Shown: positions 19,444-41,976 of the stretch, in pieces
Position numbering within the stretch: position 1 is the stretch's first letter
Layout of the letters: every line of letters begins with the position of its first letter
NCBI GenBank assembly: GCA_023091665.1
Contig: JALJCQ010000017.1
Span: 2,294,001 to 2,358,000, forward strand
Source: Pythium myriotylum
Taxonomy: Eukaryota > Oomycota > Peronosporomycetes > Pythiales > Pythiaceae
Length of the DNA stretch: 64,000 nt
Reading direction: 5' to 3'
Made by a program: the position numbers and the translations under genes
Notes under the pieces: generated by a model
The model's input: only the letters and a program-made list of their open reading frames with translations
What the model was told of the DNA's origin: nothing
Database searches by the model: none

Positions 19444-20618
19444 ACGCGATCGCCACCCGCACCACCGGCACAACACAAACCACCCCACAACAACTTCACC
19501 ACACAACGCACACACCAGCACGAAATAGAACAAATACACACACTCACACACTACACCACAACAACTTTACCCATACCGTGCCAGCCTCGCCACGCACCAA
19601 CCAACCACACTTATTTATTACGCGCTCGAAATTTATTCACACCAACAACATATCCGCACCATACACCAACCACTACCCACTTTCGCCGATCCCAATCATC
19701 ACTTCGACACTCTTGCAACACACTTGGATCACCCAGAGAGCGCTCCGCCTCAACGCATTGAGACCAGGTCGTGAACCACGATCACAACTTGCATGCCAAG
19801 TCCAGTCCACACCAACCAAGCCCACCCAAGCCCACCCAAGCCCACCCAAGCCCACCCAAGCCCACCCAGTCGCTGAGTCCTTCCGCTAACACCGACGCCC
19901 GACGCCGGTGTCAGCGTCCACTCCACCCCATGCCACAGCTACTGTCACCACGTTGAGCCATGCCCACACGACCTCCAGTGTGCACACACGTGGTAACTTG
20001 GGATGGGATGGATCGAAGACACCCCTCGCAAAACCAAGACGTTCTCTTGACTTGACTGGAGACTCCCACCTCTACCCCACCCTCCACCGCGTGATGCTGC
20101 TTGCTAGCTTGTACCTTGGCCCGTTGACTTGTCATTGGTTGGGAGCAGCGTGGTTATAGCTATGGGTGAGGTTTGGTACGCTTTCAAGCACTAGGCAAGA
20201 TACGAGATGCGAGATAGGCACAAAGGACTCGTATGCAAGACCGCAGTGCCGATGGGATTGCCCCGCGCTGTCCCGATCCCGATCTTTATCCCCGGCCCCC
20301 TCGTGAGATCTCCGTGACAAGAAGAGCGGTTCTGCTCGTCCCGTGACGGAAGACGACGAGGAGAGACCCCAGCGCAAGTGGCCTGGTGACATGGGGTTCG
20401 TTGTCAAATGAGTAAGACGTTTGGTGTTGTGTTTCGTTGTTTATGAGTTGGTGATGGGGAGTTGGGCAGTTGGGACGCAGTAGATGGTCGAGGGCGTCGT
20501 GTGGCTCACGTGTGTAGTGGTGTGGGCGGCATTGGAGGCGCGTCGTGTTGAGAAGAGCGTGCAATGTGCGTAGTGGTGATAAAGCCGGGACGCAGGAGGT
20601 TTGTGTGGCAAAGGGAGA

Positions 20619-20690
20619 TGCCCCCAAGCAGGATCGAACTACCGACCTTCCGCTTACTAAGCGGGTGCTCTACCACTGAGCTATAGGGGC
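20619..20690 (-). tRNA. tRNA-Thr(AGT), array copy 17, next to LINE copy 1
   Basis: Complete 72-nt gene. Its 5' flank is replaced after only two bases (ac) by the 5' end of LINE copy 1, which is transcribed the other way. The gene is intact because its first 16 nt are part of the duplicated target site. A and B boxes are preserved. Confidence 0.97.
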
Positions 20691-20692
20691 AC
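20675..20692. repeat. Target-site duplication, left copy (LINE 1)
   Basis: actgagctataggggcac. On the minus strand it is two upstream bases plus tRNA nt 1-16 (acceptor 5' strand, A-box start, D loop). It is part of the intact tRNA copy 17. Confidence 0.95.
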
Positions 20693-20783
20693 TTCTCGTT
20701 TTGCCTCGTCGAACACAAGTCGATCCAAGCAAACAGCCGAAGTAACCAGCCAACCAGCCTCCCAGCCTTCCCGTCGAACGAAG

Positions 20784-23489
20784 ATGAAGCCAGCGAACCA
20801 GATCGACTCGGCTCGCCCATCCCCCTCCGACCTCGACTTTGTGGGTGAGAACCCTCCCGCGCAGCTGCTCCGTCCCGTCTCTGCACAAGATTCGGGAAGT
20901 CTCACGCATTGTGAGCCACCATCTGGTCTGGATGGTGCCAGTAACACTGCCGACGACTCTGCGACGCCTGCGCCCGTATCTCACGTGACTTCGAAGTCAG
21001 TGAATGCGCAAGCCCCAGTCAGCTCCGGCACGACGGCTACCTCCGCGGTCGACGACGCCGACGCTCCTTCAACCGCCGACGGACCCGCCTCTACCGCCCG
21101 CATCGTGGATGTCGGTGCCGGTATGACGGTGCTCGTGACAGGCTCCGCTCCGGTGGCGTCTGGTGTCGAGATCTCCGTTGCGCTTTCCAGTTCGACCGAC
21201 TCGCCCGCGAACACTGGGACTACTGCTGTCTCCGGTGGCGACGGTGACGACGACGACTTGATGATGGCGGCGACCTCGCTCCAGCTCAGTCTCGCCTCAA
21301 GCCCCGACGAATCAACTGTTGAAGACTCGACTACGACTGATCCGATTCCGGATGCTCAGCAACCGCCTGCCAGTGCGGCAGGTGCGACGCCTTCGCTTGG
21401 TGCTCTTCTACGCCGTCCAACCGAGATTCGCCGTGACAGAACTCCCGTCTCGGCGACCAGTCGTGTGGTGCTGCCTCGACCGTGTGCTGCGGATATCGAA
21501 GCGATTGACGCGCTGTACGAGAACGGTGGCGACTGGGCCTCGCTCTTCACGTCAGTTGAACAAGCGCGCCCGTACGAGCTCCCGCGCGCTCGTTACGTCA
21601 TGACCATCGACACTGGTCGCGCGTTCGAGCGTACCGGCATCAACAAGATCATGGCGTCTTTTCTCAAGGACAACGGGAACCCCGTGGTCACCGAGCAGAT
21701 CAAGCTTCAAGAACTCGGCCAGATCTCCAAGGGTCGTGGCGGAGAAATCCGCGTCAAGGTCAAGTCACGTGCTGCGTGCGAACGCCTCGCGCGTCAGGAA
21801 GTCAAGATCCTCGGTGGCAAGTACATGTTCCAAGACTTCGACGTCCTCGCCGATCGCTTCTACATCGACATCTCGAGCGTCGACAGCAACTTCGACAACG
21901 AAGGTCTTCTGCGCGCGTTCTTCGACATCGGCAGCGAGCCGATTTACGACACGTTCCGCGACGTCAACCTCGCGTCCGGAATGACGACAGCAACGTGGCG
22001 CGTCTACTTTCGAAGTGCGACGTGCCCACGAGCGCTGTGTGTGCAAGGCTTCACGTGCGACCAAGTCATCTTCGGCAACCGCATGTACCCAGCTTTGGCG
22101 CGCGACGCCGCGTTCCCGTCCCAGCGACGTGGTTTCGGTCAGGTGTCGCCACACGCTTTGGACTTGGACAAGATCAACCAGCCTACTCCGCCAGCACCAG
22201 TGCAACCGTCCGAGCCGGCTGCTCCGACTTCGTACGCAGACGCGGTGAAGAACGGTGTCTCGCAAGCGGAGTCCAAGTCGCAAGACTCTGCAAGCGTCAT
22301 CTCGGTCGGTACGCACGCGGGATCGCTGTTGACGCCTCCGGGTAGTCCGCAGCCTGGAGCCAAGTCTCTGCCGCCGCCGCCACCGCCGCTCGGTCTGTCC
22401 GCGTCCAACGCAGATCGTCCGGAAAACGGAACCAAATCGACCAAGTCCAAGGGCAAGCGCTCGCGTTACGCCGACGACTTTGCCGACATGTTACAGAAGG
22501 CGCGACCGAAGCCCGTGCAAGGCATCGCGACAAGCAACTACTTCGAAGTGTTGAACTCCATCGAGTTCGAACTCGACTGCTGCAATGCGGCGCTCAACGA
22601 GTCGAGCCTGCCGCGGTTCCAGGTCGTGCCTCGCAAGGTCAAGGGTCCCGACACGATCAAGACCAGCAAGGAGTCGAGTCACTTCTTGACCAAGCACCAC
22701 ACTCTGGTCATGAAGACGAAGGAACCGACGTCAATCCAAGAGATCCTCGCCGAACTCGAGACAACCGAGCCCACCGCCGACCTCCAGCTCCAGTCGAACC
22801 ATATCGCTGCAGCGGACGTTCGTGCGGAATCACTTCGGAAGACTCTCCGCAACACGGCCAACCCGGACACGATCGGCCATCTTGCCGGTGGGAAGTCTCC
22901 GCTCGCGTTCAACTCTGTGCTGCTCGGCGAGATGAGTGACCTCAGCGGCAACGTCAAGGAACTCGCACAGCTCCACATGATCAATCGTGTGTTGAGCGCG
23001 ACTGATCCAAACTCGTGTACGACCTTCGCGCACAAGTGGGCTGCGCACTGCGGTGAGAAGCTGCCGAAGGATCGCAATGACATCTTCAAGATGACGGGAC
23101 GGTGGTATCGTGATGAGCGGATGTCGGCGCTCTTGCGAGCCACGTGCGCGCTCTCGTTGTTCGAGTTGATGCTCATGTGCACGGCGCCGCAGATCTTCCA
23201 GAGCGACATGTGGATCCAGCGCCTTACCGGAGCTCCAGTCGGGTGGATTCCAGCACTCAACGGTCGTTTGCTCCACCCCAACGTGTTGTTGGCACTGCTG
23301 CGCTCCGACTTGGGCGCACAGATCTTTGCCGTGTGGGAGAAGATCCAGTGGCAAGGCGAGCTTCTCGACGACCTCGAATATCTTCGCACGTGCGGCTTGT
23401 ACTTCTCCGACGACGAAGCGGTTCTCCAGCTTACGGCTGTCAACGGCGTCGCAACACTAGGTGCCGGACCGCTCTGCCTCGACTGCTAA
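20784..23489 (+). CDS. LINE copy 1 ORF1: RNA-binding-like protein (901 aa)
   Basis: First protein of the LINE, expected to coat element RNA as a nucleoprotein. The start is the first ATG, 91 nt into the element. Residues 1-230 are low-complexity, rich in Ser, Thr, Ala and Asp with acidic runs. A folded region spans about 234-445; its part from about 352 (DRFYIDISSVDS) to 445 has alternating hydrophobic strands and helices and could be an RRM-like fold, as in many LINE ORF1 proteins (inference). A proline-rich linker contains SYADAVKNG at about 482 and a poly-Pro run at about 528, then a basic patch (KSTKSKGKRSR, about 550). The C-terminal 340 residues are helical and unrecognised. I see no CCHC zinc knuckle. 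It ends in TAA inside ORF2, in a different frame. Confidence 0.88.
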   Translation: MKPANQIDSARPSPSDLDFVGENPPAQLLRPVSAQDSGSLTHCEPPSGLDGASNTADDSATPAPVSHVTSKSVNAQAPVSSGTTATSAVDDADAPSTADGPASTARIVDVGAGMTVLVTGSAPVASGVEISVALSSSTDSPANTGTTAVSGGDGDDDDLMMAATSLQLSLASSPDESTVEDSTTTDPIPDAQQPPASAAGATPSLGALLRRPTEIRRDRTPVSATSRVVLPRPCAADIEAIDALYENGGDWASLFTSVEQARPYELPRARYVMTIDTGRAFERTGINKIMASFLKDNGNPVVTEQIKLQELGQISKGRGGEIRVKVKSRAACERLARQEVKILGGKYMFQDFDVLADRFYIDISSVDSNFDNEGLLRAFFDIGSEPIYDTFRDVNLASGMTTATWRVYFRSATCPRALCVQGFTCDQVIFGNRMYPALARDAAFPSQRRGFGQVSPHALDLDKINQPTPPAPVQPSEPAAPTSYADAVKNGVSQAESKSQDSASVISVGTHAGSLLTPPGSPQPGAKSLPPPPPPLGLSASNADRPENGTKSTKSKGKRSRYADDFADMLQKARPKPVQGIATSNYFEVLNSIEFELDCCNAALNESSLPRFQVVPRKVKGPDTIKTSKESSHFLTKHHTLVMKTKEPTSIQEILAELETTEPTADLQLQSNHIAAADVRAESLRKTLRNTANPDTIGHLAGGKSPLAFNSVLLGEMSDLSGNVKELAQLHMINRVLSATDPNSCTTFAHKWAAHCGEKLPKDRNDIFKMTGRWYRDERMSALLRATCALSLFELMLMCTAPQIFQSDMWIQRLTGAPVGWIPALNGRLLHPNVLLALLRSDLGAQIFAVWEKIQWQGELLDDLEYLRTCGLYFSDDEAVLQLTAVNGVATLGAGPLCLDC

Positions 23490-26400
23490 AGCGGTCGAGG
23501 CGGACGCGGCCGAGGTCTCGTGGGAGAACATCAGTCTTTTGACGGTGAACACCAACGGGATCAAGAAGAACGGCCACCTGTTGATCGAGAACCAGCTCAT
23601 CAAGAACAGTCTCTCGTGCGTCCAAGAGACCAAGCTGCGCGACTCGCATCATCGTGCAACGCTCCAATTTCACCATGACACCAGATTTCAACACCGCCTC
23701 TTCGTCAGCGACACCAACGCGCACAGTCCAGTTGCCGTTGCTGCACGATCGGGTGGCGTCATGACAGTGCTCCGCTCCGACTTTCCCGGCTTTCAGTCTG
23801 CTTGTGAGCAGTCTTCGTTGACTATTCAAGGCCGCTACTTGGTCGTCCGGGTCGTCGCGAACGGTGCTCCGATCTACATCCACAACGTGTACGCGCCAGT
23901 CGATAACTTCGAGAAGAAGGGGTTCTTCGAAGCGCTACCGTACGAAGTGTTCGAAGACAATGCGACTCACCTGGTGCTCGGTGACCTCAACACGCCACTT
24001 GACCCCCTCGTCGATGCGTCGGATCCAAGGGCGACAGGAACGACCGGCGGTAACGCGTGTGTGGCGTGGTTGGCCCAACTCGGTGTCGTGGATGCCTGGC
24101 GAATCCACCATCCCGACGAACGCGTCTACACTGGTCCACAGCCTCGACACAACCGTCTCGACTACATCCTCATGTCGGAGGACTTCTGCACCGCGCTATA
24201 CGGTGACTCCTCGTACTTTGAGCCCAAGGGTGCCGGCGACCATCTCGCACATCAAGTTGTGTTGCGCGCGATGAGCCAGCCTCAAGGCCACGGGTACTGG
24301 CGTTTCCAGTCGGCGATGCTCGACTTCCCCGATATCGTTGAAGCTATCCAAGGCGAACCGACGACTGTGCTTGCTGCGTTACGGCGCTCCTCCAACCCGG
24401 GCAAGGTGTGGCACAAGTGGAAAAAGGACATGCGTCGTCAGCTTCAAGCTCTGCAGCGCAAGCTGAAGCGTCAAGGTGAGACCGCCATCACCGAAGCTCG
24501 TCAGGCACTTGCCCACGCGGCTGCGGCATACCGGTCGGAGCGAAGCGATCGCGCGCAGACGGTGTTCCAGACCGCACTGACGGCATACCAAGACAGCATC
24601 AACTCGGCGCGTCTTTACAACCAAGACTCGGCTTTCGACTTCCAGGCTCAACACGCGGAGAAGTCATCCAAGTACTTCTTTCGACCGCTGGACGGATCCT
24701 TGCGGAGAGTCAGCATCGAAGAAGTGCGGCTTCAAGATGGCTCAGCATCAAGCAACCCCGCGGATATCGCGGCTGCCTTCAATCAGCACTGGGGCGGTAT
24801 CATGGGCGATGTTGAGCGCGGTGGTGTTGTCGTCCAAGAGCCTGAGCAGAGCCAGATTGACCGGATGCTCGACACGATCGACCGCCGACTGTCTGAAGAC
24901 GAGCAAAATATCCTCAACGCTCCGATCACAGCGGCGGACCTTGCTAGTGCAATCAAGAAGATGCGGGCATCGTCTGCACCCGGGATGGATGGGCTTCCAG
25001 CTTCGTTCTACCAAGTGGCTCCTGACGTCTTCGGTGAATGCCTCGAGATCGTGTTCAACTACCAGCTTCAGCGAGGAGAGCTCCTTCGGTGTCAGCGCCA
25101 GTCTGCGATCAGTCTGCTGCACAAGAAGGGATCCCGAGCTGACCCAGGCAACTATCGCCCAATTGCTTTGATGGGTGTCGACGTGAAGGCACTGTCAAAG
25201 GTTCTCGCTTTCCGACTGCAGTTGTTCCTGACCAAGCTTGTGCACCAAGACCAGAAGGCTTTCGTGCGTGGTCGCTCTCTGCATCACCACGTTCGTTTCG
25301 TGAGTGACCTGCAAGACCTCGTCACCGCGCGCGACGAAGAAGCCTACGCCATGTTCCTCGACTTTGAGAAGGCGTACGACCGCGTCAACTGGAACTACAT
25401 GTTTCAGGTGCTCGATCGGATGGGATGTGGCGGGGCGTTCTCGGGGTGGGTGAAGCTCCTGTACACTCGACCACGCGCGCATCTCATGATCAACGGATTC
25501 GTGCAAGACCCGCTCTGCCCAACGCGCGGAGTCAAGCAAGGTGATCCGCTGTCGGCGCTGCTGTTCTTGCTTGTTATCGAGCCACTCGGTAACCTGCTCC
25601 GCCAGCACGAAGAACATGGGATCTGCTTGACAGCGGATGCCACCGTCACGAGTGTTTTCTTCGCCGACGACTCGACGTTACTGTCGGGCTCTATCGCTGG
25701 TGTCGAGGCGCAACTTGGGTTGGTCGAAGAATACTGTCAAGGCTCCGGCGCCAAGCTCAACGTGAACAAGTGTGTGCTGATGTCGCTGCATCGAACGCGG
25801 CGATGCCCGGGCATACCAGGTGTGCAGGTTCTCGATGAAGACTCCACGGTCAAGTTCCTCGGTCTCCTGTTCGGTCAACGACGCACAACGGAATTGATTG
25901 TTGAAGACCTCGATCGACGCTTCTTTGACGGGTTCAAGCAGTGGTTTCGGCGCGCACGGACGCTCCAAGGCAGGCTCCTCGTCGCCCAGACCATGGTGCT
26001 CTCACGTCTGTGGCACTACACTGCTCACGTTGTTGTGCCGCCAGGACGAGTGAAGAAGTGGCAAGCCGCGCTACACCGGTTCGTCTTGAGTCGGCGCTAC
26101 GAACGCGACGCTCGGCATGTCCAGTTGATCTCGAACGAATTTGTCAACTTGCCGCGCGAGTCTGGGGGTCTGCAGGTACCGAGTCTCGACGGTGTGCTCA
26201 AGCGACAGTCACTGCAGCTCCTGCTTCAGTTCACGGCAGCTTCGGCATCGACGACCGGCAACTGGACGGTAGCAGGAGTCGAGCTGCTGCGGATCAGTCT
26301 TCCGCGGTGGGGCCCGCAGAGGCCACTCGACTTTCTCTACGTCAGTCCGTGGCGGCATCGAGGCTCGATCGAGTGGGACCAGCTCTCTTCGTGGTGGCGT

Positions 26401-27627
26401 GCGGCCTGGAAGACTTGGTACGCTATCAAGTGGCCGGTGTCGTGGCTCGACCTCCCTCCAGAAGACCGTCTTGCGTTTGCACTCGACCAACCGATCTGGT
26501 TCCATGGCGACAAGAACTTCCAGTTCCTCCCAACCAGCCGTTCCGACACAACGCCGTCCCAGCATCGTTCTCTCAGCATGATTGCAGAGCCGCAACGAAG
26601 CTTCCGTCGGCAAGTTGCCCGTGTCTTTCAGTTGCGATCTCTTCGTGACTTCGCTGGTGAAGGCGACAAGTGGCCGAGCGCGATCGAGTTTGCTGAGCGA
26701 CATGTCGACTACACCCAAGTCTCCATCACCCCGTATCGACAGTACACGTGGCTGCTCAAGCTTCACGAGGAAGCCACGCAAGTTTTCGGGCGTCTCTGCA
26801 CAATGTGCTCTGTCCCAGTCGATGGAGTGCTACCGACGGCGCCTGAGCACCAACATCCGCGAGTCGGTGTGAAGATCAACGACCGTGTGTGCTGGGTGCC
26901 GCGCATTCCACGATCCCAACTGCTCCGCCTGGTGTGGCAAGCTCCAGAGCCGACGAGAACGCATCCGCTGTTCTTCCACGACCCTCGAGCGCCTACAGAC
27001 GTGGTCCTCCGATTCAACAAGCTACGCAAGCGGCTTCGTGTGTTGCTTCTCCCGATATACGAAGACCTCCAGTTCCGCTTGGCGTACGGCTTGTTACCGA
27101 CTCGCTCACGCTTCTCGTTCATGACGGTGGCAAATCCCGGCATCGTGTACTGTGTTCGACCAGGCTGCAACTCAGTGGAGACGGCGCGTCATTTGTTCTT
27201 CGAGTGTGTGCTGCCGACTGTGATATGGCGCGACATCTTCCGTGATATGTCGGTGTTCTTCACATCTCGACCCTCCTGGACCGACATTGTCTTCGGTAAA
27301 GCCATCCGCGTTGCTCCCGTGTGGAAGGACCACACAGAAGAAATCCAAGACCTGTGGCAAGTCATCCGTGCTGTGGTGCTTCACCTGTTGTGGACTGAAC
27401 GCAATGGGCGACTGTTCAACGGGCGGTCCCCGATGCCAACAATTGCAGCACTGCGTGTGGTGTATACGACTGTGGGTGCTCATGTGCGTGCGTGTCTTCG
27501 ACGTGTGTACGACGATGCGCAGCGTGCTTCGCTTCAGGTTGTGTTGTCAAGTCTCCAGTCTACGCCTTCTTTCGGTGCCTTCCTGCAAAACAACATGGGG
27601 TTGTTTGCAGTTCGCTTTTTGGCATAA
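23461..27627 (+). CDS. LINE copy 1 ORF2: endonuclease-reverse transcriptase
   Basis: Catalytic protein for target-primed reverse transcription; 1388 codons open from just after TAG at 23458-23460. Endonuclease/exonuclease/phosphatase domain about 20-265: VNTNGI (about 28), VQETKLRD (53), NVYAPVDN (142), VLGDLNTPLDP (170), NRLDYIL (230) and GDHLAHQ (258), covering the catalytic Glu, Asp/Asn and Asp-His positions. Reverse transcriptase about 500-820: SSAPGMDGLP, NYRPIAL, FLDFEKAYDRV (631), GVKQGDPLSALLF (690), FADD (732) and KFLGLLFG. Near 1230 a C-x4-C...H-x4-C motif (CVRPGC, HLFFEC) resembles zf-RVT. No RNase H domain is seen. The frame opens with GTG; the first in-frame ATG (GGVMTVL, about residue 100) lies inside the endonuclease, so translation probably depends on ORF1 (+1 frameshift, reinitiation or a non-AUG start). 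Confidence 0.93.
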   Translation: MPDRSASTAKAVEADAAEVSWENISLLTVNTNGIKKNGHLLIENQLIKNSLSCVQETKLRDSHHRATLQFHHDTRFQHRLFVSDTNAHSPVAVAARSGGVMTVLRSDFPGFQSACEQSSLTIQGRYLVVRVVANGAPIYIHNVYAPVDNFEKKGFFEALPYEVFEDNATHLVLGDLNTPLDPLVDASDPRATGTTGGNACVAWLAQLGVVDAWRIHHPDERVYTGPQPRHNRLDYILMSEDFCTALYGDSSYFEPKGAGDHLAHQVVLRAMSQPQGHGYWRFQSAMLDFPDIVEAIQGEPTTVLAALRRSSNPGKVWHKWKKDMRRQLQALQRKLKRQGETAITEARQALAHAAAAYRSERSDRAQTVFQTALTAYQDSINSARLYNQDSAFDFQAQHAEKSSKYFFRPLDGSLRRVSIEEVRLQDGSASSNPADIAAAFNQHWGGIMGDVERGGVVVQEPEQSQIDRMLDTIDRRLSEDEQNILNAPITAADLASAIKKMRASSAPGMDGLPASFYQVAPDVFGECLEIVFNYQLQRGELLRCQRQSAISLLHKKGSRADPGNYRPIALMGVDVKALSKVLAFRLQLFLTKLVHQDQKAFVRGRSLHHHVRFVSDLQDLVTARDEEAYAMFLDFEKAYDRVNWNYMFQVLDRMGCGGAFSGWVKLLYTRPRAHLMINGFVQDPLCPTRGVKQGDPLSALLFLLVIEPLGNLLRQHEEHGICLTADATVTSVFFADDSTLLSGSIAGVEAQLGLVEEYCQGSGAKLNVNKCVLMSLHRTRRCPGIPGVQVLDEDSTVKFLGLLFGQRRTTELIVEDLDRRFFDGFKQWFRRARTLQGRLLVAQTMVLSRLWHYTAHVVVPPGRVKKWQAALHRFVLSRRYERDARHVQLISNEFVNLPRESGGLQVPSLDGVLKRQSLQLLLQFTAASASTTGNWTVAGVELLRISLPRWGPQRPLDFLYVSPWRHRGSIEWDQLSSWWRAAWKTWYAIKWPVSWLDLPPEDRLAFALDQPIWFHGDKNFQFLPTSRSDTTPSQHRSLSMIAEPQRSFRRQVARVFQLRSLRDFAGEGDKWPSAIEFAERHVDYTQVSITPYRQYTWLLKLHEEATQVFGRLCTMCSVPVDGVLPTAPEHQHPRVGVKINDRVCWVPRIPRSQLLRLVWQAPEPTRTHPLFFHDPRAPTDVVLRFNKLRKRLRVLLLPIYEDLQFRLAYGLLPTRSRFSFMTVANPGIVYCVRPGCNSVETARHLFFECVLPTVIWRDIFRDMSVFFTSRPSWTDIVFGKAIRVAPVWKDHTEEIQDLWQVIRAVVLHLLWTERNGRLFNGRSPMPTIAALRVVYTTVGAHVRACLRRVYDDAQRASLQVVLSSLQSTPSFGAFLQNNMGLFAVRFLA

Positions 27628-27760
27628 AAGCGATTTCCTGCCGTTTCTTCTTCTTCAGTGCGGGTGCTTGCTTTCAATACTGGCTCGAAACCAACCTCGT
27701 TTTGGAATCAGAGCGTACCCTCGCGGCCGAAGTCAAGCGAAACCACTAGCACAAGAAACC

Positions 27761-27836
27761 TCCCCGAGGTGGGGATCGAACCCGCGCGACCGACAACATC
27801 GGGGTCCACGCTCATAACCATTTGAGCTAACCGCAG
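27761..27836 (-). ncRNA. Antisense tRNA-like segment in the LINE copy 1 3' region
   Basis: 76 nt on the minus strand resembling a decayed tRNA. It has a perfect D stem (GCTC/GAGC), an A box (TAGCTCAAATGG), a T arm with loop TTCGATC and one mismatch in the stem, and a B box (GGTTCGATCCC). The acceptor stem pairs only about 5 of 7, and the anticodon arm does not fold canonically; GTT (Asn) is possible within ATGTTGT. It lies between the ORF2 stop and the 3' end, opposite to the LINE. A Pol III stop (four A on +) occurs about 130 bp further left near 27626. It is unlike the array tRNA-Thr. It may be a captured tRNA or an ancestral target relic. Confidence 0.65.
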
Positions 27837-28018
27837 TTATCCAACCGATGTGCTAAAACAAGTACCTAGACCAGTCAAGACCAACGGAAGTCAACCAACA
27901 ACTCAACAATTGAAGCTCCCAGCCTCGTCACATACTAGTCAAGTGTATAATATTCATCGACGAGGTAGATTAGAGTAGTCATAGTCGCATTAATTTTAGT
28001 TAATACAGACGCCTTGAA

Positions 28019-28036
28019 ACTGAGCTATAGGGGCAC
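28019..28036. repeat. Target-site duplication, right copy (LINE 1), 5' tRNA fragment
   Basis: Identical 18 bp after the LINE 3' end, followed by the normal array sequence gcgatcgcc. Only the first 16 nt of a tRNA gene are here. The first base (a) is ambiguous with the LINE tail. Confidence 0.95.
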
Positions 28037-29261: not shown

Positions 29262-30436
29262 ACGCGATCGCCACCCGCACCACCGGCACAACACAAACCA
29301 CCCCACAACAACTTCACCACACAACGCACACACCAGCACGAAATAGAACAAATACACACACTCACACACTACACCACAACAACTTTACCCATACCGTGCC
29401 AGCCTCGCCACGCACCAACCAACCACACTTATTTATTACGCGCTCGAAATTTATTCACACCAACAACATATCCGCACCATACACCAACCACTACCCACTT
29501 TCGCCGATCCCAATCATCACTGCGACACTCTTGCAACACACTTGGATCACCCAGAGAGCGCTCCGCCTCAACGCATTGTGACCAGGTCGTGAACCACGAT
29601 CACAACTTGCATGCCAAGTCCAGTCCACACCAACCAAGCCCACCCAAGCCCACCCAAGCCCACCCAAGCCCACCCAAGCCCACCCAGTCGCTGAGTCCTT
29701 CCGCTAACACCGACGCCCGACGCCGGTGTCAGCGTCCACTCCACCCCATGCCACAGCTACTGTCACCACGTTGAGCCATGCCCACACGACCTCCAGTGTG
29801 CACACACGTGGTAACTTGGGATGGGATGGATCGAAGACACCCCTCGCAAAACCAAGACGTTCTCTTGACTTGACTGGAGACTCCCACCTCTACCCCACCC
29901 TCCACCGCGTGATGCTGCTTGCTAGCTTGTACCTTGGCCCGTTGACTTGTCATTGGTTGGGAGCAGCGTGGTTATAGCTATGGGTGAGGTTTGGTACGCT
30001 TTCAAGCACTAGGCAAGATACGAGATGCGAGATAGGCACAAAGGACTCGTATGCAAGACCGCAGTGCCGATGGGATTGCCCCGCGCTGTCCCGATCCCGA
30101 TCTTTATCCCCGGCCCCCTCGTGAGATCTCCGTGACAAGAAGAGCGGTTCTGCTCGTCCCGTGACGGAAGACGACGAGGAGAGACCCCAGCGCAAGTGGC
30201 CTGGTGACATGGGGTTCGTTGTCAAATGAGTAAGACGTTTGGTGTTGTGTTTCGTTGTTTATGAGTTGGTGATGGGGAGTTGGGCAGTTGGGACGCAGTA
30301 GATGGTCGAGGGCGTCGTGTGGCTCACGTGTGTAGTGGTGTGGGCGGCATTGGAGGCGCGTCGTGTTGAGAAGAGCGTGCAATGTGCGTAGTGGTGATAA
30401 AGCCGGGACGCAGGAGGTTTGCGTGGCAAAGGGAGA

Positions 30437-30508
30437 TGCCCCCAAGCAGGATCGAACTACCGACCTTCCGCTTACTAAGCGGGTGCTCTACCACTGAGCT
30501 ATAGGGGC
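30437..30508 (-). tRNA. tRNA-Thr(AGT), array copy 19, next to LINE copy 2
   Basis: Complete 72-nt gene placed head-to-head with LINE copy 2, two bases apart. It has the gtttgCgtgg trailer form, unlike copy 17, so the two LINE insertions sit in units of different haplotype. Confidence 0.97.
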
Positions 30509-30510
30509 AC
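30493..30510. repeat. Target-site duplication, left copy (LINE 2)
   Basis: actgagctataggggcac, forming the 5' end of intact tRNA copy 19 plus two flanking bases. Confidence 0.95.
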
Positions 30511-30601
30511 TTCTCGTTTTGCCTCGTCGAGCACAAGTCGATCCAAGCAAACAGCCGAAGTAACCAGCCAACCAGCCTCCCAGCCTTCCCGTCGAACGAA
30601 G

Positions 30602-33319
30602 ATGAAGCCAGCGAACCAGATCGACTCGGCTCGCCCATCCCCCTCCGACCTCGACTTTGTGGGTGAGAACCCTCCCGCGCAGCTGCTCCGTCCCGTCTCT
30701 GCACAAGATTCGGGAAGTCTCACGCATTGTGAGCCACCATCTGGTCTGGATGGTGCCAGTAACACTGCCGACGACTCTGCGACGCCTGCGCCCGTATCTC
30801 ACGTGACTTCGAAGTCAGTGAATGCGCAAGCCCCAGTCAGCTCCGGCACGACGGCTACCTCCGCGGTCGACGACGCCGACGCTCCTTCAACCGCCGACGG
30901 ACCCGCCTCTACCGCCCGCATCGTGGATGTCGGTGCCGGTATGACGGTGCTCGTGACAGGCTCCGCTCCGGTGGCGTCTGGTGTCGAGATCTCCGTTGCG
31001 CTTTCCAGTTCGACCGACTCGCCCGCGAACACTGGGACTACTGCTGTCTCCGGTGGCGACGGTGACGACGACGACTTGATGATGGCGGCGACCTCGCTCC
31101 AGCTCAGTCTCGCCTCAAGCCCCGACGAATCAACTGTTGAAGACTCGACTACGACTGATTCGACCCCGGATCCGATTCCGGATGCTCAGCAACCGCCTGC
31201 CAGTGTGGCAGGTGCGACGCCTTCGCTTGGTGCTCTTCTACGCCGTCCAACCGAGATTCGCCGTGACAGAACTCCCGTCTCGGCGACCAGTCGTGTGGTG
31301 CTGCCTCGACCGTGTGCTGCGGATATCGAAGCGATTGACGCGCTGTACGAGAACGGTGGCGACTGGGCCTCGCTCTTCACGTCAGTTGAACAAGCGCGCC
31401 CGTACGAGCTCCCGCGCGCTCGTTACGTCATGACCATCGACACTGGTCGCGCGTTCGAGCGTACCGGCATCAACAAGATCATGGCGTCTTTTCTCAAGGA
31501 CAACGGGAACCCCGTGGTCACCGAGCAGATCAAGCTTCAAGAACTCGGCCAGGTCTCCAAGGGTCGTGGCGGAGAAATCCGCGTCAAGGTCAAGTCACGT
31601 GCTGCGTGCGAACGCCTCGCGCGTCAGGAAGTCAAGATCCTCGGTGGCAAGTACATGTTCCAAGACTTCGACGTCCTCGCCGATCGCTTCTACATCGACA
31701 TCTCGAGCGTCGACAGCAACTTCGACAACGAAGGTCTTCTGCGCGCGTTCTTCGACATCGGCAGCGAGCCGATTTACGACACGTTCCGCGACGTCAACCT
31801 CGCGTCCGGAATGACGACAGCAACGTGGCGCGTCTACTTTCGAAGTGCGACGTGCCCACGAGCGCTGTGTGTGCAAGGCTTCACGTGCGACCAAGTCATC
31901 TTCGGCAACCGCATGTACCCAGCTTTGGCGCGCGACGCCGCGTTCCCGTCCCAGCGACGTGGTTTCGGTCAGGTGTCGCCACACGCTTTGGACTTGGACA
32001 AGATCAACCAGCCTACTCCGCCAGCACCAGTGCAACCGTCCGAGCCGGCTGCTCCGACTTCGTACGCAGACGCGGTGAAGAACGGTGTCTCGCAAGCGGA
32101 GTCCAAGTCGCAAGACTCTGCAAGCGTCATCTCGGTCGGTACGCACGCGGGATCGCTGTTGACGCCTCCGGGTAGTCCGCAGCCTGGAGCCAAGTCTCTG
32201 CCGCCGCCGCCACCGCCGCTCGGTCTGTCCGCGTCCAACGCAGATCGTCCGGAAAACGGAACCAAATCGACCAAGTCCAAGGGCAAGCGCTCGCGTTACG
32301 CCGACGACTTTGCCGACATGTTACAGAAGGCGCGACCGAAGCCCGTGCAAGGCATCGCGACAAGCAACTACTTCGAAGTGTTGAACTCCATCGAGTTCGA
32401 ACTCGACTGCTGCAATGCGGCGCTCAACGAGTCGAGCCTGCCGCGGTTCCAGGTCGTGCCTCGCAAGGTCAAGGGTCCCGACACGATCAAGACCAGCAAG
32501 GAGTCGAGTCACTTCTTGACCAAGCACCACACTCTGGTCATGAAGACGAAGGAACCGACGTCAATCCAAGAGATCCTCGCCGAACTCGAGACGACCGAGC
32601 CCACCGCCGACCTCCAGCTCCAGTCGAACCATATCGCTGCAGCGGACGTTCGTGCGGAATCACTTCGGAAGACTCTCCGCAACACGGCCAACCCGGACAC
32701 GATCGGCCATCTTGCCGGTGGGAAGTCTCCGCTCGCGTTCAACTCTGTGCTGCTCGGCGAGATGAGTGACCTCAGCGGCAACGTCAAGGAACTCGCACAG
32801 CTCCACATGATCAATCGTGTGTTGAGCGCGACTGATCCAAACTCGTGTACGACCTTCGCGCACAAGTGGGCTGCGCACTACGGTGAGAAGCTGCCGAAGG
32901 ATCGCAATGACATCTTCAAGATGACGGGACGGTGGTATCGTGATGAGCGGATGTCGGCGCTCTTGCGAGCCACGTGCGCGCTCTCGTTGTTCGAGTTGAT
33001 GCTCATGTGCACGGCGCCGCAGATCTTCCAGAGCGACATGTGGATCCAGCGCCTTACCGGGGCTCCAGTCGGGTGGATTCCAGCACTCAACGGTCGTTTG
33101 CTCCACCCCAACGTGTTGTTGGCACTGCTGCGCTCCGACTTGGGCGCACAGATCTTTGCCGTGTGGGAGAAGATCCAGTGGCAAGGCGAGCTTCTCGACG
33201 ACCTCGAATATCTTCGCACGTGCGGCTTGTACTTCTCCGACGACGAAGCGGTTCTCCAGCTTACGGCTGTCAACGGCGTCGCAACACTAGGTGCCGGACC
33301 GCTCTGCCTCGACTGCTAA
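30602..33319 (+). CDS. LINE copy 2 ORF1: RNA-binding-like protein (905 aa)
   Basis: Same architecture as the copy 1 ORF1, with four extra residues in the acidic linker near residue 185 (DSTPDPIPD in place of DPIPD). Other changes are Ala to Val in the same linker, Ile to Val in QISKG, and Cys to Tyr in WAAHCG. All keep the frame. It ends in TAA 29 nt into ORF2. Confidence 0.88.
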   Translation: MKPANQIDSARPSPSDLDFVGENPPAQLLRPVSAQDSGSLTHCEPPSGLDGASNTADDSATPAPVSHVTSKSVNAQAPVSSGTTATSAVDDADAPSTADGPASTARIVDVGAGMTVLVTGSAPVASGVEISVALSSSTDSPANTGTTAVSGGDGDDDDLMMAATSLQLSLASSPDESTVEDSTTTDSTPDPIPDAQQPPASVAGATPSLGALLRRPTEIRRDRTPVSATSRVVLPRPCAADIEAIDALYENGGDWASLFTSVEQARPYELPRARYVMTIDTGRAFERTGINKIMASFLKDNGNPVVTEQIKLQELGQVSKGRGGEIRVKVKSRAACERLARQEVKILGGKYMFQDFDVLADRFYIDISSVDSNFDNEGLLRAFFDIGSEPIYDTFRDVNLASGMTTATWRVYFRSATCPRALCVQGFTCDQVIFGNRMYPALARDAAFPSQRRGFGQVSPHALDLDKINQPTPPAPVQPSEPAAPTSYADAVKNGVSQAESKSQDSASVISVGTHAGSLLTPPGSPQPGAKSLPPPPPPLGLSASNADRPENGTKSTKSKGKRSRYADDFADMLQKARPKPVQGIATSNYFEVLNSIEFELDCCNAALNESSLPRFQVVPRKVKGPDTIKTSKESSHFLTKHHTLVMKTKEPTSIQEILAELETTEPTADLQLQSNHIAAADVRAESLRKTLRNTANPDTIGHLAGGKSPLAFNSVLLGEMSDLSGNVKELAQLHMINRVLSATDPNSCTTFAHKWAAHYGEKLPKDRNDIFKMTGRWYRDERMSALLRATCALSLFELMLMCTAPQIFQSDMWIQRLTGAPVGWIPALNGRLLHPNVLLALLRSDLGAQIFAVWEKIQWQGELLDDLEYLRTCGLYFSDDEAVLQLTAVNGVATLGAGPLCLDC

Positions 33320-36300
33320 AGCGGTCGAGGCGGACGCGGCCGAGGTCTCGTGGGAGAACATCAGTCTTTTGACGGTGAACACCAACGGGATCAAGAAGAA
33401 CGGCCACCTGTTGATCGAGAACCAGCTCATCAAGAACAGTCTCTCGTGCGTCCAAGAGACCAAGCTGCGCGACTCGCATCATCGTGCAACGCTCCAATTT
33501 CACCATGACACCAGATTTCAACACCGCCTCTTCGTCAGCGACACCAACGCGCACAGTCCAGTTGCCGTTGCTGCACGATCGGGTGGCGTCATGACAGTGC
33601 TCCGCTCCGACTTTCCCGGGTTTCAGTCTGCTTGTGAGCAGTCTTCGTTGACTATTCAAGGCCGCTACTTGGTCGTCCGGGTCGTCGCGAACGGTGCTCC
33701 GATCTACATCCACAACGTGTACGCGCCAGTCGATAACTTCGAGAAGAAGGGGTTCTTCGAAGCGCTACCGTACGAAGTGTTCGAAGACAATGCGACTCAC
33801 CTGGTGCTCGGTGACCTCAACACGCCACTTGACCCCCTCGTCGATGCGTCGGATCCAAGGGCGACAGGAACGACCGGCGGTAACGCGTGTGTGGCGTGGT
33901 TGGCCCAACTCGGTGTCGTGGATGCCTGGCGAATCCACCATCCCGACGAACGCGTCTACACTGGTCCACAGCCTCGACACAACCGTCTCGACTACATCCT
34001 CATGTCGGAGGACTTCTGCACCGCGCTATACGGTGACTCCTCGTACTTTGAGCCCAAGGGTGCCGGCGACCATCTCGCACATCAAGTTGTGTTGCGCGCG
34101 ATGAGCCAGCCTCAAGGCCACGGGTACTGGCGTTTCCAGTCGGCGATGCTCGACTTCCCCGATATCGTTGAAGCTATCCAAGGCGAAGCGACGACTGTGC
34201 TTGCTGCGTTACGGCGCTCCTCCAACCCGGGCAAGGTGTGGCACAAGTGGAAGAAGGACATGCGTCGTCAGCTTCAAGCTCTGCAGCGCAAGCTGAAGCG
34301 TCAAGGTGAGACCGCCATCACCGAAGCTCGTCAGGCACTTGCCCACGCGGCTGCGGCATACCGGTCGGAGCGAAGCGATCGCGCGCAGACGGTGTTCCAG
34401 ACCGCACTGACGGCATACCAAGACAGCATCAACTCGGCGCGTCTTTACAACCAAGACTCGGCTTTCGACTTCCAGGCTCAACACGCGGAGAAGTCATCCA
34501 AGTACTTCTTTCGACCGCTGGACGGATCCTTGCGGAGAGTCAGCATCGAAGAAGTGCGGCTTCAAGACGGCTCAGCATCAAGCAACCCCGCGGATATCGC
34601 GGCTGCCTTCAATCAGCACTGGGGCGGTATCATGGGCGATGTTGAGCGCGGTGGTGTTGTCGTCCAAGAGCCTGAGCAGAGCCAGATTGACCGGATGCTC
34701 GACACGATCGACCGCCGACTGTCTGAAGACGAGCAAAATATCCTCAACGCTCCGATCACAGCGGCGGACCTTGCTAGTGCAATCAAGAAGATGCGGGCAT
34801 CGTCTGCACCCGGGATGGATGGGCTTCCAGCTTCGTTCTACCAAGTGGCTCCTGACGTCTTCGGTGAATGCCTCGAGATCGTGTTCAACTACCAGCTTCA
34901 GCGAGGAGAGCTCCTTCGGTGTCAGCGCCAGTCTGCGATCAGTCTGCTGCACAAGAAGGGATCCCGAGCTGACCCAGGCAACTATCGCCCAATTGCTTTG
35001 ATGGGTGTCGACGTGAAGGCACTGTCAAAGGTTCTCGCTTTCCGACTGCAGTTGTTCCTGACCAAGCTTGTGCACCAAGACCAGAAGGCTTTCGTGCGTG
35101 GTCGCTCTCTGCATCACCACGTTCGTTTCGTGAGTGACCTGCAAGACCTCGTCACCGCGCGCGACGAAGAAGCCTACGCCATGTTCCTCGACTTTGAGAA
35201 GGCGTACGACCGCGTCAACTGGAACTACATGTTTCAGGTGCTCGATCGGATGGGATGTGGCGGGGCGTTCTCGGGGTGGGTGAAGCTCCTGTACACTCGA
35301 CCACGCGCGCATCTCATGATCAACGGATTCGTGCAAGACCCGCTCTGCCCAACGCGCGGAGTCAAGCAAGGTGATCCGCTGTCGGCGCTGCTGTTCTTGC
35401 TTGTTATCGAGCCACTCGGTAACCTGCTCCGCCAGCACGAAGAACATGGGATCTGCTTGACAGCGGATGCCACCGTCACGAGTGTTTTCTTCGCCGACGA
35501 CTCGACGTTACTGTCGGGCTCTATCGCTGGTGTCGAGGCGCAACTTGGGTTGGTCGAAGAATACTGTCAAGGCTCCGGCGCCAAGCTCAACGTGAACAAG
35601 TGTGTGCTGATGTCGCTGCATCGAACGCGGCGATGCCCGGGCATACCAGGTGTGCAGGTTCTCGATGAAGACTCCACGGTCAAGTTCCTCGGTCTCCTGT
35701 TCGGTCAACGACGCACAACGGAATTGATTGTTGAAGACCTCGATCGACGCTTCTTTGACGGGTTCAAGCAGTGGTTTCGGCGCGCACGGACGCTCCAAGG
35801 CAGGCTCCTCGTCGCCCAGACCATGGTGCTCTCACGTCTGTGGCACTACACTGCTCACGTTGTTGTGCCGCCAGGACGAGTGAAGAAGTGGCAAGCCGCG
35901 CTACACCGGTTCGTCTTGAGTCGGCGCTACGAACGCGACGCTCGGCATGTCCAGTTGATCTCGAACGAATTTGTCAACCTGCCGCGCGAGTCTGGGGGTC
36001 TGCAGGTACCGAGTCTCGACGGTGTGCTCAAGCGACAGTCACTGCAGCTCCTGCTTCAGTTCACGGCAGCTTCGGCATCGACGACCGGCAACTGGACGGT
36101 AGCAGGAGTCGAGCTGCTGCGGATCAGTCTTCCGCGGTGGGGCCCGCAGAGGCCACTCGACTTTCTCTACGTCAGTCCGTGGCGGCATCGAGGCTCGATC
36201 GAGTGGGACCAGCTCTCTTCGTGGTGGCGTGCGGCCTGGAAGACTTGGTACGCTATCAAGTGGCCGGTGTCGTGGCTCGACCTCCCTCCAGAAGACCGTC

Positions 36301-37457
36301 TTGCGTTTGCACTCGACCAACCGATCTGGTTCCATGGCGACAAGAACTTCCAGTTCCTCCCAACCAGCCGTTCCGACACAACGCCGTCCCAGCATCGTTC
36401 TCTCAGCATGATTGCAGAGCCGCAACGAAGCTTCCGTCGGCAAGTTGCCCGTGTCTTTCAGTTGCGATCTCTTCGTGACTTCGCTGGTGAAGGCGACAAG
36501 TGGCCGAGCGCGATCGAGTTTGCTGAGCGACATGTCGACTACACCCAAGTCTCCATCACCCCGTATCGACAGTACACGTGGCTGCTCAAGCTTCACGAGG
36601 AAGCCACGCAAGTTTTCGGGCGTCTCTGCACAATGTGCTCTGTCCCAGTCGATGGAGTGCTACCGACGGCGCCTGAGCACCAACATCCGCGAGTCGGTGT
36701 GAAGATCAACGACCGTGTGTGCTGGGTGCCGCGCATTCCACGATCCCAACTGCTCCGCCTGGTGTGGCAAGCTCCAGAGCCGACGAGAACGCATCCGCTG
36801 TTCTTCCACGACCCTCGAGCGCCTACAGACGTGGTCCTCCGATTCAACAAGCTACGCAAGCGGCTTCGTGTGTTGCTTCTCCCGATATACGAAGACCTCC
36901 AGTTCCGCTTGGCGTACGGCTTGTTACCGACTCGCTCACGCTTCTCGTTCATGACGGTGGCAAATCCCGGCATCGTGTACTGTGTTCGACCAGGCTGCAA
37001 CTCAGTGGAGACGGCGCGTCATTTGTTCTTCGAGTGTGTGCTGCCGACTGTGATATGGCGCGACATCTTCCGTGATATGTCGGTGTTCTTCACATCTCGA
37101 CCCTCCTGGACCGACATTGTCTTCGGTAAAGCCATCCGCGTTGCTCCCGTGTGGAAGGACCACACAGAAGAAATCCAAGACCTGTGGCAAGTCATCCGTG
37201 CTGTGGTGCTTCACCTGTTGTGGACTGAACGCAATGGGCGACTGTTCAACGGGCGGTCCCCGATGCCAACAATTGCAGCACTGCGTGTGGTGTATACGAC
37301 TGTGGGTGCTCATGTGCGTGCGTGTCTTCGACGTGTGTACGACGATGCGCAGCGTGCTTCGCTTCAGGTTGTGTTGTCAAGTCTCCAGTCTACGCCTTCT
37401 TTCGGTGCCTTCCTGCAAAACAACATGGGGTTGTTTGCAGTTCGCTTTTTGGCATAA
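33291..37457 (+). CDS. LINE copy 2 ORF2: endonuclease-reverse transcriptase
   Basis: 1388 codons, essentially identical to the copy 1 ORF2; the only residue change I noticed is Pro to Ala in IQGE[P/A]TTV, between endonuclease and reverse transcriptase. All catalytic motifs are kept: endonuclease E, D, N and H positions, FADD box, terminal Cys/His cluster. It also opens with GTG directly after TAG and lacks an ATG ahead of the endonuclease, so the unusual ORF1/ORF2 junction is a conserved property and not a one-copy error. Confidence 0.93.
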   Translation: MPDRSASTAKAVEADAAEVSWENISLLTVNTNGIKKNGHLLIENQLIKNSLSCVQETKLRDSHHRATLQFHHDTRFQHRLFVSDTNAHSPVAVAARSGGVMTVLRSDFPGFQSACEQSSLTIQGRYLVVRVVANGAPIYIHNVYAPVDNFEKKGFFEALPYEVFEDNATHLVLGDLNTPLDPLVDASDPRATGTTGGNACVAWLAQLGVVDAWRIHHPDERVYTGPQPRHNRLDYILMSEDFCTALYGDSSYFEPKGAGDHLAHQVVLRAMSQPQGHGYWRFQSAMLDFPDIVEAIQGEATTVLAALRRSSNPGKVWHKWKKDMRRQLQALQRKLKRQGETAITEARQALAHAAAAYRSERSDRAQTVFQTALTAYQDSINSARLYNQDSAFDFQAQHAEKSSKYFFRPLDGSLRRVSIEEVRLQDGSASSNPADIAAAFNQHWGGIMGDVERGGVVVQEPEQSQIDRMLDTIDRRLSEDEQNILNAPITAADLASAIKKMRASSAPGMDGLPASFYQVAPDVFGECLEIVFNYQLQRGELLRCQRQSAISLLHKKGSRADPGNYRPIALMGVDVKALSKVLAFRLQLFLTKLVHQDQKAFVRGRSLHHHVRFVSDLQDLVTARDEEAYAMFLDFEKAYDRVNWNYMFQVLDRMGCGGAFSGWVKLLYTRPRAHLMINGFVQDPLCPTRGVKQGDPLSALLFLLVIEPLGNLLRQHEEHGICLTADATVTSVFFADDSTLLSGSIAGVEAQLGLVEEYCQGSGAKLNVNKCVLMSLHRTRRCPGIPGVQVLDEDSTVKFLGLLFGQRRTTELIVEDLDRRFFDGFKQWFRRARTLQGRLLVAQTMVLSRLWHYTAHVVVPPGRVKKWQAALHRFVLSRRYERDARHVQLISNEFVNLPRESGGLQVPSLDGVLKRQSLQLLLQFTAASASTTGNWTVAGVELLRISLPRWGPQRPLDFLYVSPWRHRGSIEWDQLSSWWRAAWKTWYAIKWPVSWLDLPPEDRLAFALDQPIWFHGDKNFQFLPTSRSDTTPSQHRSLSMIAEPQRSFRRQVARVFQLRSLRDFAGEGDKWPSAIEFAERHVDYTQVSITPYRQYTWLLKLHEEATQVFGRLCTMCSVPVDGVLPTAPEHQHPRVGVKINDRVCWVPRIPRSQLLRLVWQAPEPTRTHPLFFHDPRAPTDVVLRFNKLRKRLRVLLLPIYEDLQFRLAYGLLPTRSRFSFMTVANPGIVYCVRPGCNSVETARHLFFECVLPTVIWRDIFRDMSVFFTSRPSWTDIVFGKAIRVAPVWKDHTEEIQDLWQVIRAVVLHLLWTERNGRLFNGRSPMPTIAALRVVYTTVGAHVRACLRRVYDDAQRASLQVVLSSLQSTPSFGAFLQNNMGLFAVRFLA

Positions 37458-37590
37458 AAGCGATTTCCTGCCGTTTCTTCTTCTTCAGTGCGGGTGCTTG
37501 CTTTCAATACTGGCTCGAAACCAACCTCGTTTTGGAATCAGAGCGTACCCTCGCGACCGAAGTCAAGCGAAACCACTAGCACAAGAAACC

Positions 37591-37666
37591 TCCCCGAGGT
37601 GGGGATCGAACCCGCGCGACCGACAACATCGGGGTCCACGCTCATAACCATTTGAGCTAACCGCAG
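37591..37666 (-). ncRNA. Antisense tRNA-like segment in the LINE copy 2 3' region
   Basis: Identical in position and sequence to the tRNA-like segment of LINE copy 1, so it is a fixed part of the element. A- and B-box-like sequences are retained. Confidence 0.65.
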
Positions 37667-37860
37667 TTATCCAACCGATGTGCTAAAACAAGTACCTAGA
37701 CCAGTCAAGACCAACGGAAGTCAACCAACAACTCAACAATTGAAGCTCCCAGCCTCGTCACATACTAGTCAAGTGTATAATATTCATCGACGAGGTAGAT
37801 TAGAGTAGTCATAGTCGCATTAATTTTAGTTAATACAGACGCCTTGAAACTGAAATTGAA

Positions 37861-37878
37861 ACTGAGCTATAGGGGCAC
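37861..37878. repeat. Target-site duplication, right copy (LINE 2), 5' tRNA fragment
   Basis: Same 18 bp after the extended LINE tail, leading back into gcgatcgcc of the array. Confidence 0.95.
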
Positions 37879-40360: not shown

Positions 40361-41525
40361 ACGCGATCGCCACCCGCACCACCGGCACAACACAAACCAC
40401 CCCACAACAACTTCACCACACAACGCACACACCAGCACGAAATAGAACAAATACACACACTCACACACTACACCACAACAACTTTACCCATACCGTGCCA
40501 GCCTCGCCACGCACCAACCAACCACACTTATTTATTACGCGCTCGAAATTTATTCACACCAACAACATATCCGCACCATACACCAACCACTACCCACTTT
40601 CGCCGATCCCAATCATCACTGCGACACTCTTGCAACACACTTGGATCACCCAGAGAGCGCTCCGCCTCAACGCATTGAGACCAGGTCGTGAACCACGATC
40701 ACAACTTGCATGCCAAGTCCAGTCCACACCAACCAAGCCCACCCAAGCCCACCCAAGCCCACCCAAGCCCACCCAGTCGCTGAGTCCTTCCGCTAACACC
40801 GACGCCCGACGCCGGTGTCAGCGTCCACTCCACCCCATGCCACAGCTACTGTCACCACGTTGAGCCATGCCCACACGACCTCCAGTGTGCACACACGTGG
40901 TAACTTGGGATGGGATGGATCGAAGACACCCCTCGCAAAACCAAGACGTTCTCTTGACTTGACTGGAGACTCCCACCTCTACCCCACCCTCCACCGCGTG
41001 ATGCTGCTTGCTAGCTTGTACCTTGGCCCGTTGACTTGTCATTGGTTGGGAGCAGCGTGGTTATAGCTATGGGTGAGGTTTGGTACGCTTTCAAGCACTA
41101 GGCAAGATACGAGATGCGAGATAGGCACAAAGGACTCGTATGCAAGACCGCAGTGCCGATGGGATTGCCCCGCGCTGTCCCGATCCCGATCTTTATCCCC
41201 GGCCCCCTCGTGAGATCTCCGTGACAAGAAGAGCGGTTCTGCTCGTCCCGTGACGGAAGACGACGAGGAGAGACCCCAGCGCAAGTGGCCTGGTGACATG
41301 GGGTTCGTTGTCAAATGAGTAAGACGTTTGGTGTTGTGTTTCGTTGTTTATGAGTTGGTGATGGGGAGTTGGGCAGTTGGGACGCAGTAGATGGTCGAGG
41401 GCGTCGTGTGGCTCACGTGTGTAGTGGTGTGGGCGGCATTGGAGGCGCGTCGTGTTGAGAAGAGCGTGCAATGTGCGTAGTGGTGATAAAGCCGGGACGC
41501 AGGAGGTTTGCGTGGCAAAGGGAGA

Positions 41526-41597
41526 TGCCCCCAAGCAGGATCGAACTACCGACCTTCCGCTTACTAAGCGGGTGCTCTACCACTGAGCTATAGGGGC
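41526..41597 (-). tRNA. tRNA-Thr(AGT), array copy 22, next to the short element
   Basis: Complete 72-nt gene. Its upstream flank is replaced after two bases by the 759-bp non-autonomous element, at the same junction used by both LINEs. Confidence 0.97.
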
Positions 41598-41599
41598 AC
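41582..41599. repeat. Target-site duplication, left copy (short element)
   Basis: actgagctataggggcac at the 5' end of intact tRNA copy 22. Confidence 0.95.
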
Positions 41600-41709
41600 T
41601 TCGCAATTTGCTCGCTACCCCACAAGTGACCAAGTCCAGAAGTGTCCAGTCCAAGCACCCAGCCCAGCTGCCAGCCCATCACCCCCGACCCTCTCCACAC
41701 CCAGTCGCC

Positions 41710-41886: not shown

Positions 41887-41976
41887 TATCAACCCACCGC
41901 TGATCAACCCACGCCGTGACCAACACTCACGGCACCCAGCCACCAACCTTCACTCACGAGACCGTTGGGTAACCAA

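Follow-up and report, generated by a model that had tools for sequence, protein, structure and literature searches.

The transfer RNA array and its insertions

The DNA analysed here is a 64,000-nucleotide stretch of Pythium myriotylum contig JALJCQ010000017.1 (C17:2294001-2358000), referred to as the window. It consists of a tandem array of transfer RNA (tRNA) genes for Thr(AGT), into which two copies of a long interspersed nuclear element (LINE) and one short element are inserted. ARAGORN and Rfam identify 36 tRNA-Thr(AGT) genes, all on the minus strand, of which 35 are identical across 75 bases and the remaining one differs at the last annotated base. Oomycete genomes are known to contain long tandem tRNA arrays, and those described in the excerpt of PMC9584435 include a Thr(CGT)-Trp-Ser trimer in Phytophthora infestans. 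Between 845 and 59673 the unit length varies in 10-bp steps (1227, 1237, 1247 and one of 1267 bp), which suggests a short spacer repeat present in variable number.

The insertions were recognized by their junctions. The 18-mer ACTGAGCTATAGGGGCAC occurs 39 times in the window and is off its normal flanks at only six places, which are the left and right junctions of the three insertions. All three join the tRNA-Thr(AGT) gene at the same base and are flanked by an exact duplication of 18 bp, as a sequence-only reading of this stretch had claimed. Its length arithmetic was also reproduced: removing each element plus 18 bp restores units of 1227, 1247 and 1237 bp. The gene is rebuilt by the target duplication, another of its claims, since at all three insertions the left-hand tRNA-Thr gene is whole and does not differ from the neighbouring copies. 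The features are as follows.

20617..20691, minus strand: rebuilt complete tRNA-Thr(AGT) gene, left of LINE 1 (ARAGORN, Rfam, identity to array copies; mature nucleotide 1 read as 20690)
20675..20692, unstranded: left 18-bp target duplication of LINE 1 (junction sequence)
20693..28018, plus strand: LINE copy 1, 7326 bp, antisense to the tRNA gene (junctions)
20784..23489, plus strand: open reading frame 1 (ORF1) of LINE 1, 901 amino acids (no Pfam match; residues ~270-440 resemble two RRM folds in a low-confidence model)
23461..27627, plus strand: ORF2 of LINE 1, 1388 amino acids (predicted apurinic-type endonuclease, reverse transcriptase, Cys/His motif near the C terminus)
27763..27836, minus strand: tRNA-like sequence in the LINE 3' untranslated region (UTR) (A-box-like and B-box-like motifs, read by eye)
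28019..28036, unstranded: right duplication of LINE 1, with a 16-nucleotide tRNA remnant (junction sequence)
30435..30509, minus strand: rebuilt tRNA-Thr gene, left of LINE 2 (ARAGORN, Rfam, sequence identity)
30493..30510, unstranded: left duplication of LINE 2 (junction sequence)
30511..37860, plus strand: LINE copy 2, 7350 bp, of which 37849-37860 are 12 extra tail bases (junctions, comparison with copy 1)
30602..33319, plus strand: ORF1 of LINE 2, 905 amino acids (open reading frame)
33291..37457, plus strand: ORF2 of LINE 2, 1388 amino acids (open reading frame)
37861..37878, unstranded: right duplication of LINE 2 (junction sequence)
41524..41598, minus strand: rebuilt tRNA-Thr gene, left of the short element (ARAGORN, Rfam, sequence identity)
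41582..41599, unstranded: left duplication of the short element (junction sequence)
41600..42358, plus strand: short non-autonomous element, 759 bp (last 17 bases identical to the LINE 3' end)
42359..42376, unstranded: right duplication of the short element (junction sequence)

LINE 2 differs from LINE 1 by 12 substitutions and two 12-bp insertions. One of the latter is in ORF1 and the other is the extra tail, ACTGAAATTGAA, that stands ahead of the right-hand duplication.

Proteins encoded by the LINE

ORF2 is predicted to carry an N-terminal apurinic (AP) endonuclease with conserved catalytic motifs, in agreement with the sequence-only reading. The Pfam domain Exo_endo_phos scores 24.3 bits, just below its 24.5-bit cut-off. 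The endonuclease model (predicted local distance difference test, pLDDT, 85) has as its top PDB match the human LINE-1 endonuclease, including the LTx hairpin-exchange variant, with a template modelling score of 0.77 by target length. The catalytic motifs QE, HNVYAP, GD, NRLDY and GDH are invariant across 21 aligned proteins. Judged by bit scores against solved structures, the reverse transcriptase appears closer to L1 ORF2p (198-200 bits, the best match) than to R2 (76-78 bits for chains so named). A Pfam search of ORF2 gave no RNase H match.

ORF1 likewise has no Pfam match. Its middle part weakly resembles tandem RRM domains, with a model pLDDT of 54 and three structure matches at E <= 0.001. 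The named protein relatives of the LINE are all from oomycetes (Globisporangium, Peronospora, Lagenidium, Aphanomyces, Plasmopara and Pythium). Among viral contigs, a scan gave two pattern matches, neither of which is a relative.

Distribution of LINE ends in the genome

Genome-wide counts were made in a 58.7 Mb assembly of 55 contigs. The 5' part of the LINE was used in a DNA search for 5' ends, and 40 of 44 candidates were scored; at least 40 genomic copies begin at the first base of the query, in addition to one fragment. In 37 of the 40 listed copies a complete antisense tRNA gene, called by ARAGORN, ends no more than 7 nucleotides away. These neighbours represent 13 anticodons: Ala-AGC (7), Lys-CTT (6), Cys (5), Trp (4) and Asn (3) are the most frequent, Thr-AGT, Phe, Lys-TTT and Arg-ACG were found twice each, and Ile-TAT, Ile-AAT, Tyr and Pro-TGG once each. 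The other three of the 40 have no adjoining complete tRNA. One (L047) is a LINE stacked on a short element in a Thr-CGT array, the second (L048) lies ~17 bp upstream of a tRNA-Val gene at an A-box-like motif, and the third (L053/L066, on C18) is nested in a variant of the tRNA-like stretch within the 3' UTR of another LINE copy. In the window, that stretch (27763-27836) gave no tRNA call by ARAGORN or Rfam.

The 3' ends showed the same site from the other side. The exact 17-base LINE 3' end occurs 217 times in the genome, 43 of these being of LINE type, and ACT follows in all 217. In 204 the sequence continues as ACTRRRCYA, the A box read backwards. The other 13 comprise seven ACTGAA ends and six of other kinds. 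Six of the seven ACTGAA ends are tail repeats that then run into an A box (three at tRNA-Arg, LINE 2, L047 and one on C13), and the end at C7:575448, outside the ACTRRRCYA pattern, is still the A box of a tRNA-Ala(TGC). The A-box rule fits 211 of the 217 exact 3' ends. Short elements extend the range of targets to Thr-TGT, Thr-CGT and Ala-TGC. Two further remnants were seen, a diverged tail in a tRNA-Phe array (L075) and a 3' UTR fragment without the tail (L079); in five stretches taken at guessed positions (L093, L100, L105, L106 and L108) no element end was seen.

Extra ACTGAA-type repeats are present at six 3' junctions (window 37849-37860; C1, C11 and C13). They look as if the end of the transcript had been copied more than once.

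The probable cut site and the target duplication

Both junctions could be paired for 27 copies in many tRNA targets, the Thr-TGT entry pairing the outer ends of a pile. The stretch shared by the two junctions is 15-19 bp long. Where exactly it begins and ends is ambiguous, since the element has (T)CAC as its own first bases and supplies AAACT at the 3' end. At the Ala, Tyr and LINE-UTR sites the insertion carries an A that the target lacks, and at the Arg and Val sites it carries an AC that the target lacks. Since these bases are not present in the targets, they point to an element that brings ..TTGAAAC(T), and therefore to a primer strand that ends beside tRNA A14, typically 5'-TRGCTCA^G. The other cut falls between tRNA nucleotide 1 and about three bases upstream, so that the duplication normally restores the tRNA from nucleotide 1. 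The (T)CAC of the element becomes the new 5' flank of the tRNA.

The short element and stacking

The full-length short element was found in at least 61 places (40 of 131 candidates scored), and a 790-bp variant is present on C4. Its significant match to the LINE is confined to the last 17 bases, and its 5' end resembles that of the LINE by eye. It was considered as an internally deleted copy of the LINE; this was rejected, the significant match covering only those 17 bases.

Short elements also occur head to tail, with the 16-nucleotide tRNA remnant alone between them. In 264 kb examined there are 44 element 5' ends. Two LINE copies on C12 with variable first bases were missed by this count; both are among the 40 LINE 5' ends listed above. 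Of the 44 ends, 25 are beside an intact tRNA and 14 are stacked on another element. The piles are explained simply by repeated hits on a rebuilt gene. Unequal exchange probably adds to them, because identical piles recur on C4.

Target recognition and proposed mechanism

The site, its precision, the duplication, the range of isotypes, the stacking and the open reading frames are read directly from the sequence. Together they make it highly probable that the element is an autonomous, two-ORF, AP-endonuclease LINE of L1-like type whose target is the RNA polymerase III (Pol III) A box of many different tRNA genes.

From these we infer nicking by ORF2, base pairing at the primer, an order of steps and transcription of the rebuilt gene. 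The ORF2 endonuclease would nick the tRNA-sense strand beside A14, typically at 5'-TRGCTCA^G-T-(N)-GG. The freed 3' end would prime reverse transcription of the LINE RNA, which would end in ..CCTTGAAACT and may pair with a primer ending in ..AGT. The opposite strand would be cut about 14-17 bp away, at tRNA nucleotide 1 to about -3, and fill-in would duplicate tRNA nucleotides 1 to about 14-16. The predicted outcome is a complete tRNA gene, which could be transcribed, head-to-head with the LINE 5' end, and a remnant of ~16 nucleotides at the LINE 3' end. The rebuilt gene would be open to new hits, leading to stacked elements. The 759-bp element, with the same last 17 nucleotides, probably rides on the LINE machinery.

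Several observations weigh against this interpretation. Six of the 217 exact 3' ends break the A-box rule. A LINE lies ~17 bp upstream of tRNA-Val (C43; L048, L080) and two short elements ~20 bp upstream of tRNA-Ala(CGC) (C23:1272145 and 1274468; L111-L114). At C16:35116 (L110) an element end is in the D-loop of a tRNA-Glu-like gene, read by eye, and in the opposite orientation. A short element of the ACTGAA type ends in the T-arm of a tRNA-Ala(TGC) gene (C7:577427-577443; L090), and the end at C12:1745326 is outside any tRNA and is followed by ACTGAGCAG. On the 5' side, five of the 44 element 5' ends, all of short elements, are beside a partial Lys tRNA, and the short element at L087 left a broken left-hand tRNA. 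Many copies sit in amplified array units, and because of this the copy number exceeds the number of independent events. The longer 3' flank was examined for 96 of the 217 ends, 90 of which run into the A box of a tRNA or tRNA-like stretch; the remaining 121 are known by three to nine flanking bases only. Finally, an alignment of 17 targets at the cut has G10, A14 and one D-loop G in all and T8 in 16, but its rows were aligned by means of an A-box pattern, which itself imposes part of this conservation, and it is illustrative only.

Alternative explanations

The strongest alternative is that tethering to the Pol III factors TFIIIC or TFIIIB sets the site, as proposed for the Dictyostelium element TRE5, and that the endonuclease has little sequence preference of its own. 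In its favour, Pol III transcribes the target genes, TFIIIC binds the A box according to the excerpt of PMC5391098, and of the six exceptional 3' ends all but one are in a tRNA gene or within ~20 bp of one. However, tethering does not account readily for the one-base precision of the 3' junction (ACT in 217 of 217), and the upstream and non-tRNA sites still show TCA^(A/G); those of Val and Ala(CGC) read TCA^A or TCA^G.

The genes that are passed over bear on the same question. At 1.61-1.73 Mb of C11, Ser, Trp and Thr genes lie together in one repeat. In this region 40 of 41 exact 3' ends read ACTGAGCTA, which fits Trp and Thr, and the remaining one is an ACTGAA tail. The 5' part of the Ser gene is TTGGCCGAGTGG, and an insertion there would read ACTCGG. 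That sequence (Ser-GCT type) was found at none of the 217 3' ends, though Ser genes adjoin targeted Trp and Thr genes. ACTATA (His type) was also found at none of the 217, though His genes adjoin targeted Ala genes. A pyrimidine follows ACT at one of the 217 ends genome-wide, in the form ACTT. The skipping of Ser and His genes favours recognition of the DNA sequence by the LINE, perhaps with help from a Pol III complex; such a helper would itself count against recognition of the A box by the endonuclease unaided. Tethering as the determinant of the site is thus considered unlikely.

Under a further alternative the apparent specificity would be an echo of a small number of original insertions, multiplied through amplification of the arrays and through gene conversion; this has next to no likelihood. 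Identical piles are repeated on C4 and identical junctions occur within some arrays, as such spread would produce. Yet the same site is used in arrays of 13 anticodons with different spacers, junction variants occur within single isotypes (Cys, Phe and Ala), and unequal exchange inside one array would not be expected to place an insertion at the equivalent base in the array of a different tRNA. Spread by array amplification only was rejected, as the flanks examined for different isotypes share no spacer sequence.

Specificity for the tRNA-Thr gene alone, claimed by the sequence-only reading and suggested by the tRNA-Thr(AGT) location of both window LINEs and the short element, is virtually without credence, since only two of the 40 listed LINE 5' ends are in Thr-AGT, 35 are at other complete tRNAs and three elsewhere, and 12 other anticodons are used; most copies lie outside tRNA-Thr genes and this claim fails. 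Chance or an assembly artefact was rejected, the same junction being present in arrays of many isotypes.

Past the array, the window contains an ORF of 466 amino acids without a Pfam match (62087-63487, minus strand).

Comparison with known systems

Human LINE-1 ORF2p is the best solved-structure match of the present ORF2 by sequence and, for the endonuclease, also by fold. Human LINE-1 has a loose target preference and is not known to be specific for RNA genes.

Published elements associated with tRNA or other small-RNA genes are compared here as described in excerpts of the cited papers. Utopia is, like the present element, a site-specific LINE in small-RNA gene arrays of oomycetes. It differs in its restriction-like endonuclease, in its U2 small nuclear RNA target and in leaving disrupted U2 genes behind (PMC4640811). 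Membership in Utopia was rejected because the present LINE has an AP endonuclease and tRNA targets.

The Dada DNA transposons also insert inside tRNA genes, and in three Perkinsus families the putative target duplication, TAGCTC, is part of the A box. They differ in having a DDE transposase and duplications of 6-7 bp, and each Perkinsus family has its own tRNA genes (PMC3706591). A place among them was ruled out by the reverse transcriptase, the AP endonuclease and the shared stretch of 15-19 bp.

Dewa, from zebrafish, belongs to the AP type and the Tx1 group. It is a target-specific non-long-terminal-repeat (non-LTR) retrotransposon tied to tRNA genes, like the present LINE; unlike it, Dewa is described as targeting the tRNA-Leu spacer rather than the gene, and a single isotype (PMC3706591).

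TRE5 and TRE3 of Dictyostelium discoideum resemble the present LINE in being aimed at tRNA genes and in tandem stacking at one gene. Their insertions scatter around positions ~47 bp upstream, as with TRE5-A, or ~100 bp downstream, and TFIIIB and TFIIIC are proposed to guide them (PMC5391098). The difference from the TRE elements pointed out by the sequence-only reading is thus upheld, and TRE membership was rejected, the present junctions being inside the gene with three upstream exceptions apart.

NLTR-A of D. purpureum is found 2-6 bp upstream of mature tRNAs (PMC5006619, PMC5911963). This is where the present LINE would be placed if one flank only were viewed. NLTR-A has an RNase H downstream of its reverse transcriptase, a domain for which the present ORF2 gave no match. 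The term 'target site duplication' is absent from the main text of PMC5006619, and the excerpts mention no cut inside the tRNA.

Against novelty, tRNA genes are named in general terms as targets of non-LTR retrotransposons in the excerpt of PMC8869645, which cites for example the 2004 Dewa paper, and the excerpts of PMC3747384 and PMC7082073 have nothing further on cutting within the tRNA coding region. Searches of open-licence literature, a scope that leaves closed papers and Repbase outside and absence unproven, turned up no LINE with its cut in the coding region of a tRNA. The element is a site-specific AP-endonuclease LINE of which we could not find the target position and breadth described.

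Since tRNA genes in general share a conserved A box, a LINE directed to it has a bearing on targeted gene insertion. Many isotypes sharing one cut form a natural test set for an AP endonuclease that reads a degenerate motif. As far as the excerpts go, other tRNA-targeting retrotransposons stay beside the gene or in the spacer. Cutting the internal promoter of many isotypes, with self-repair by duplication, would be a different way to survive in essential DNA.

The habit of the present LINE may also account for elements seen in other genomes just upstream of tRNA genes, at a distance of a few bases. We incline, by a small degree, to the wider view that a LINE lineage, possibly extending across oomycetes, uses the A box as an address, that the spacing of its cuts regenerates the gene for further hits and stacking, and that the LINE 5' end becomes the upstream region of the tRNA, with NLTR-A maybe a second case. 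If so, the head-to-head arrangement could also serve the transcription of the element itself.

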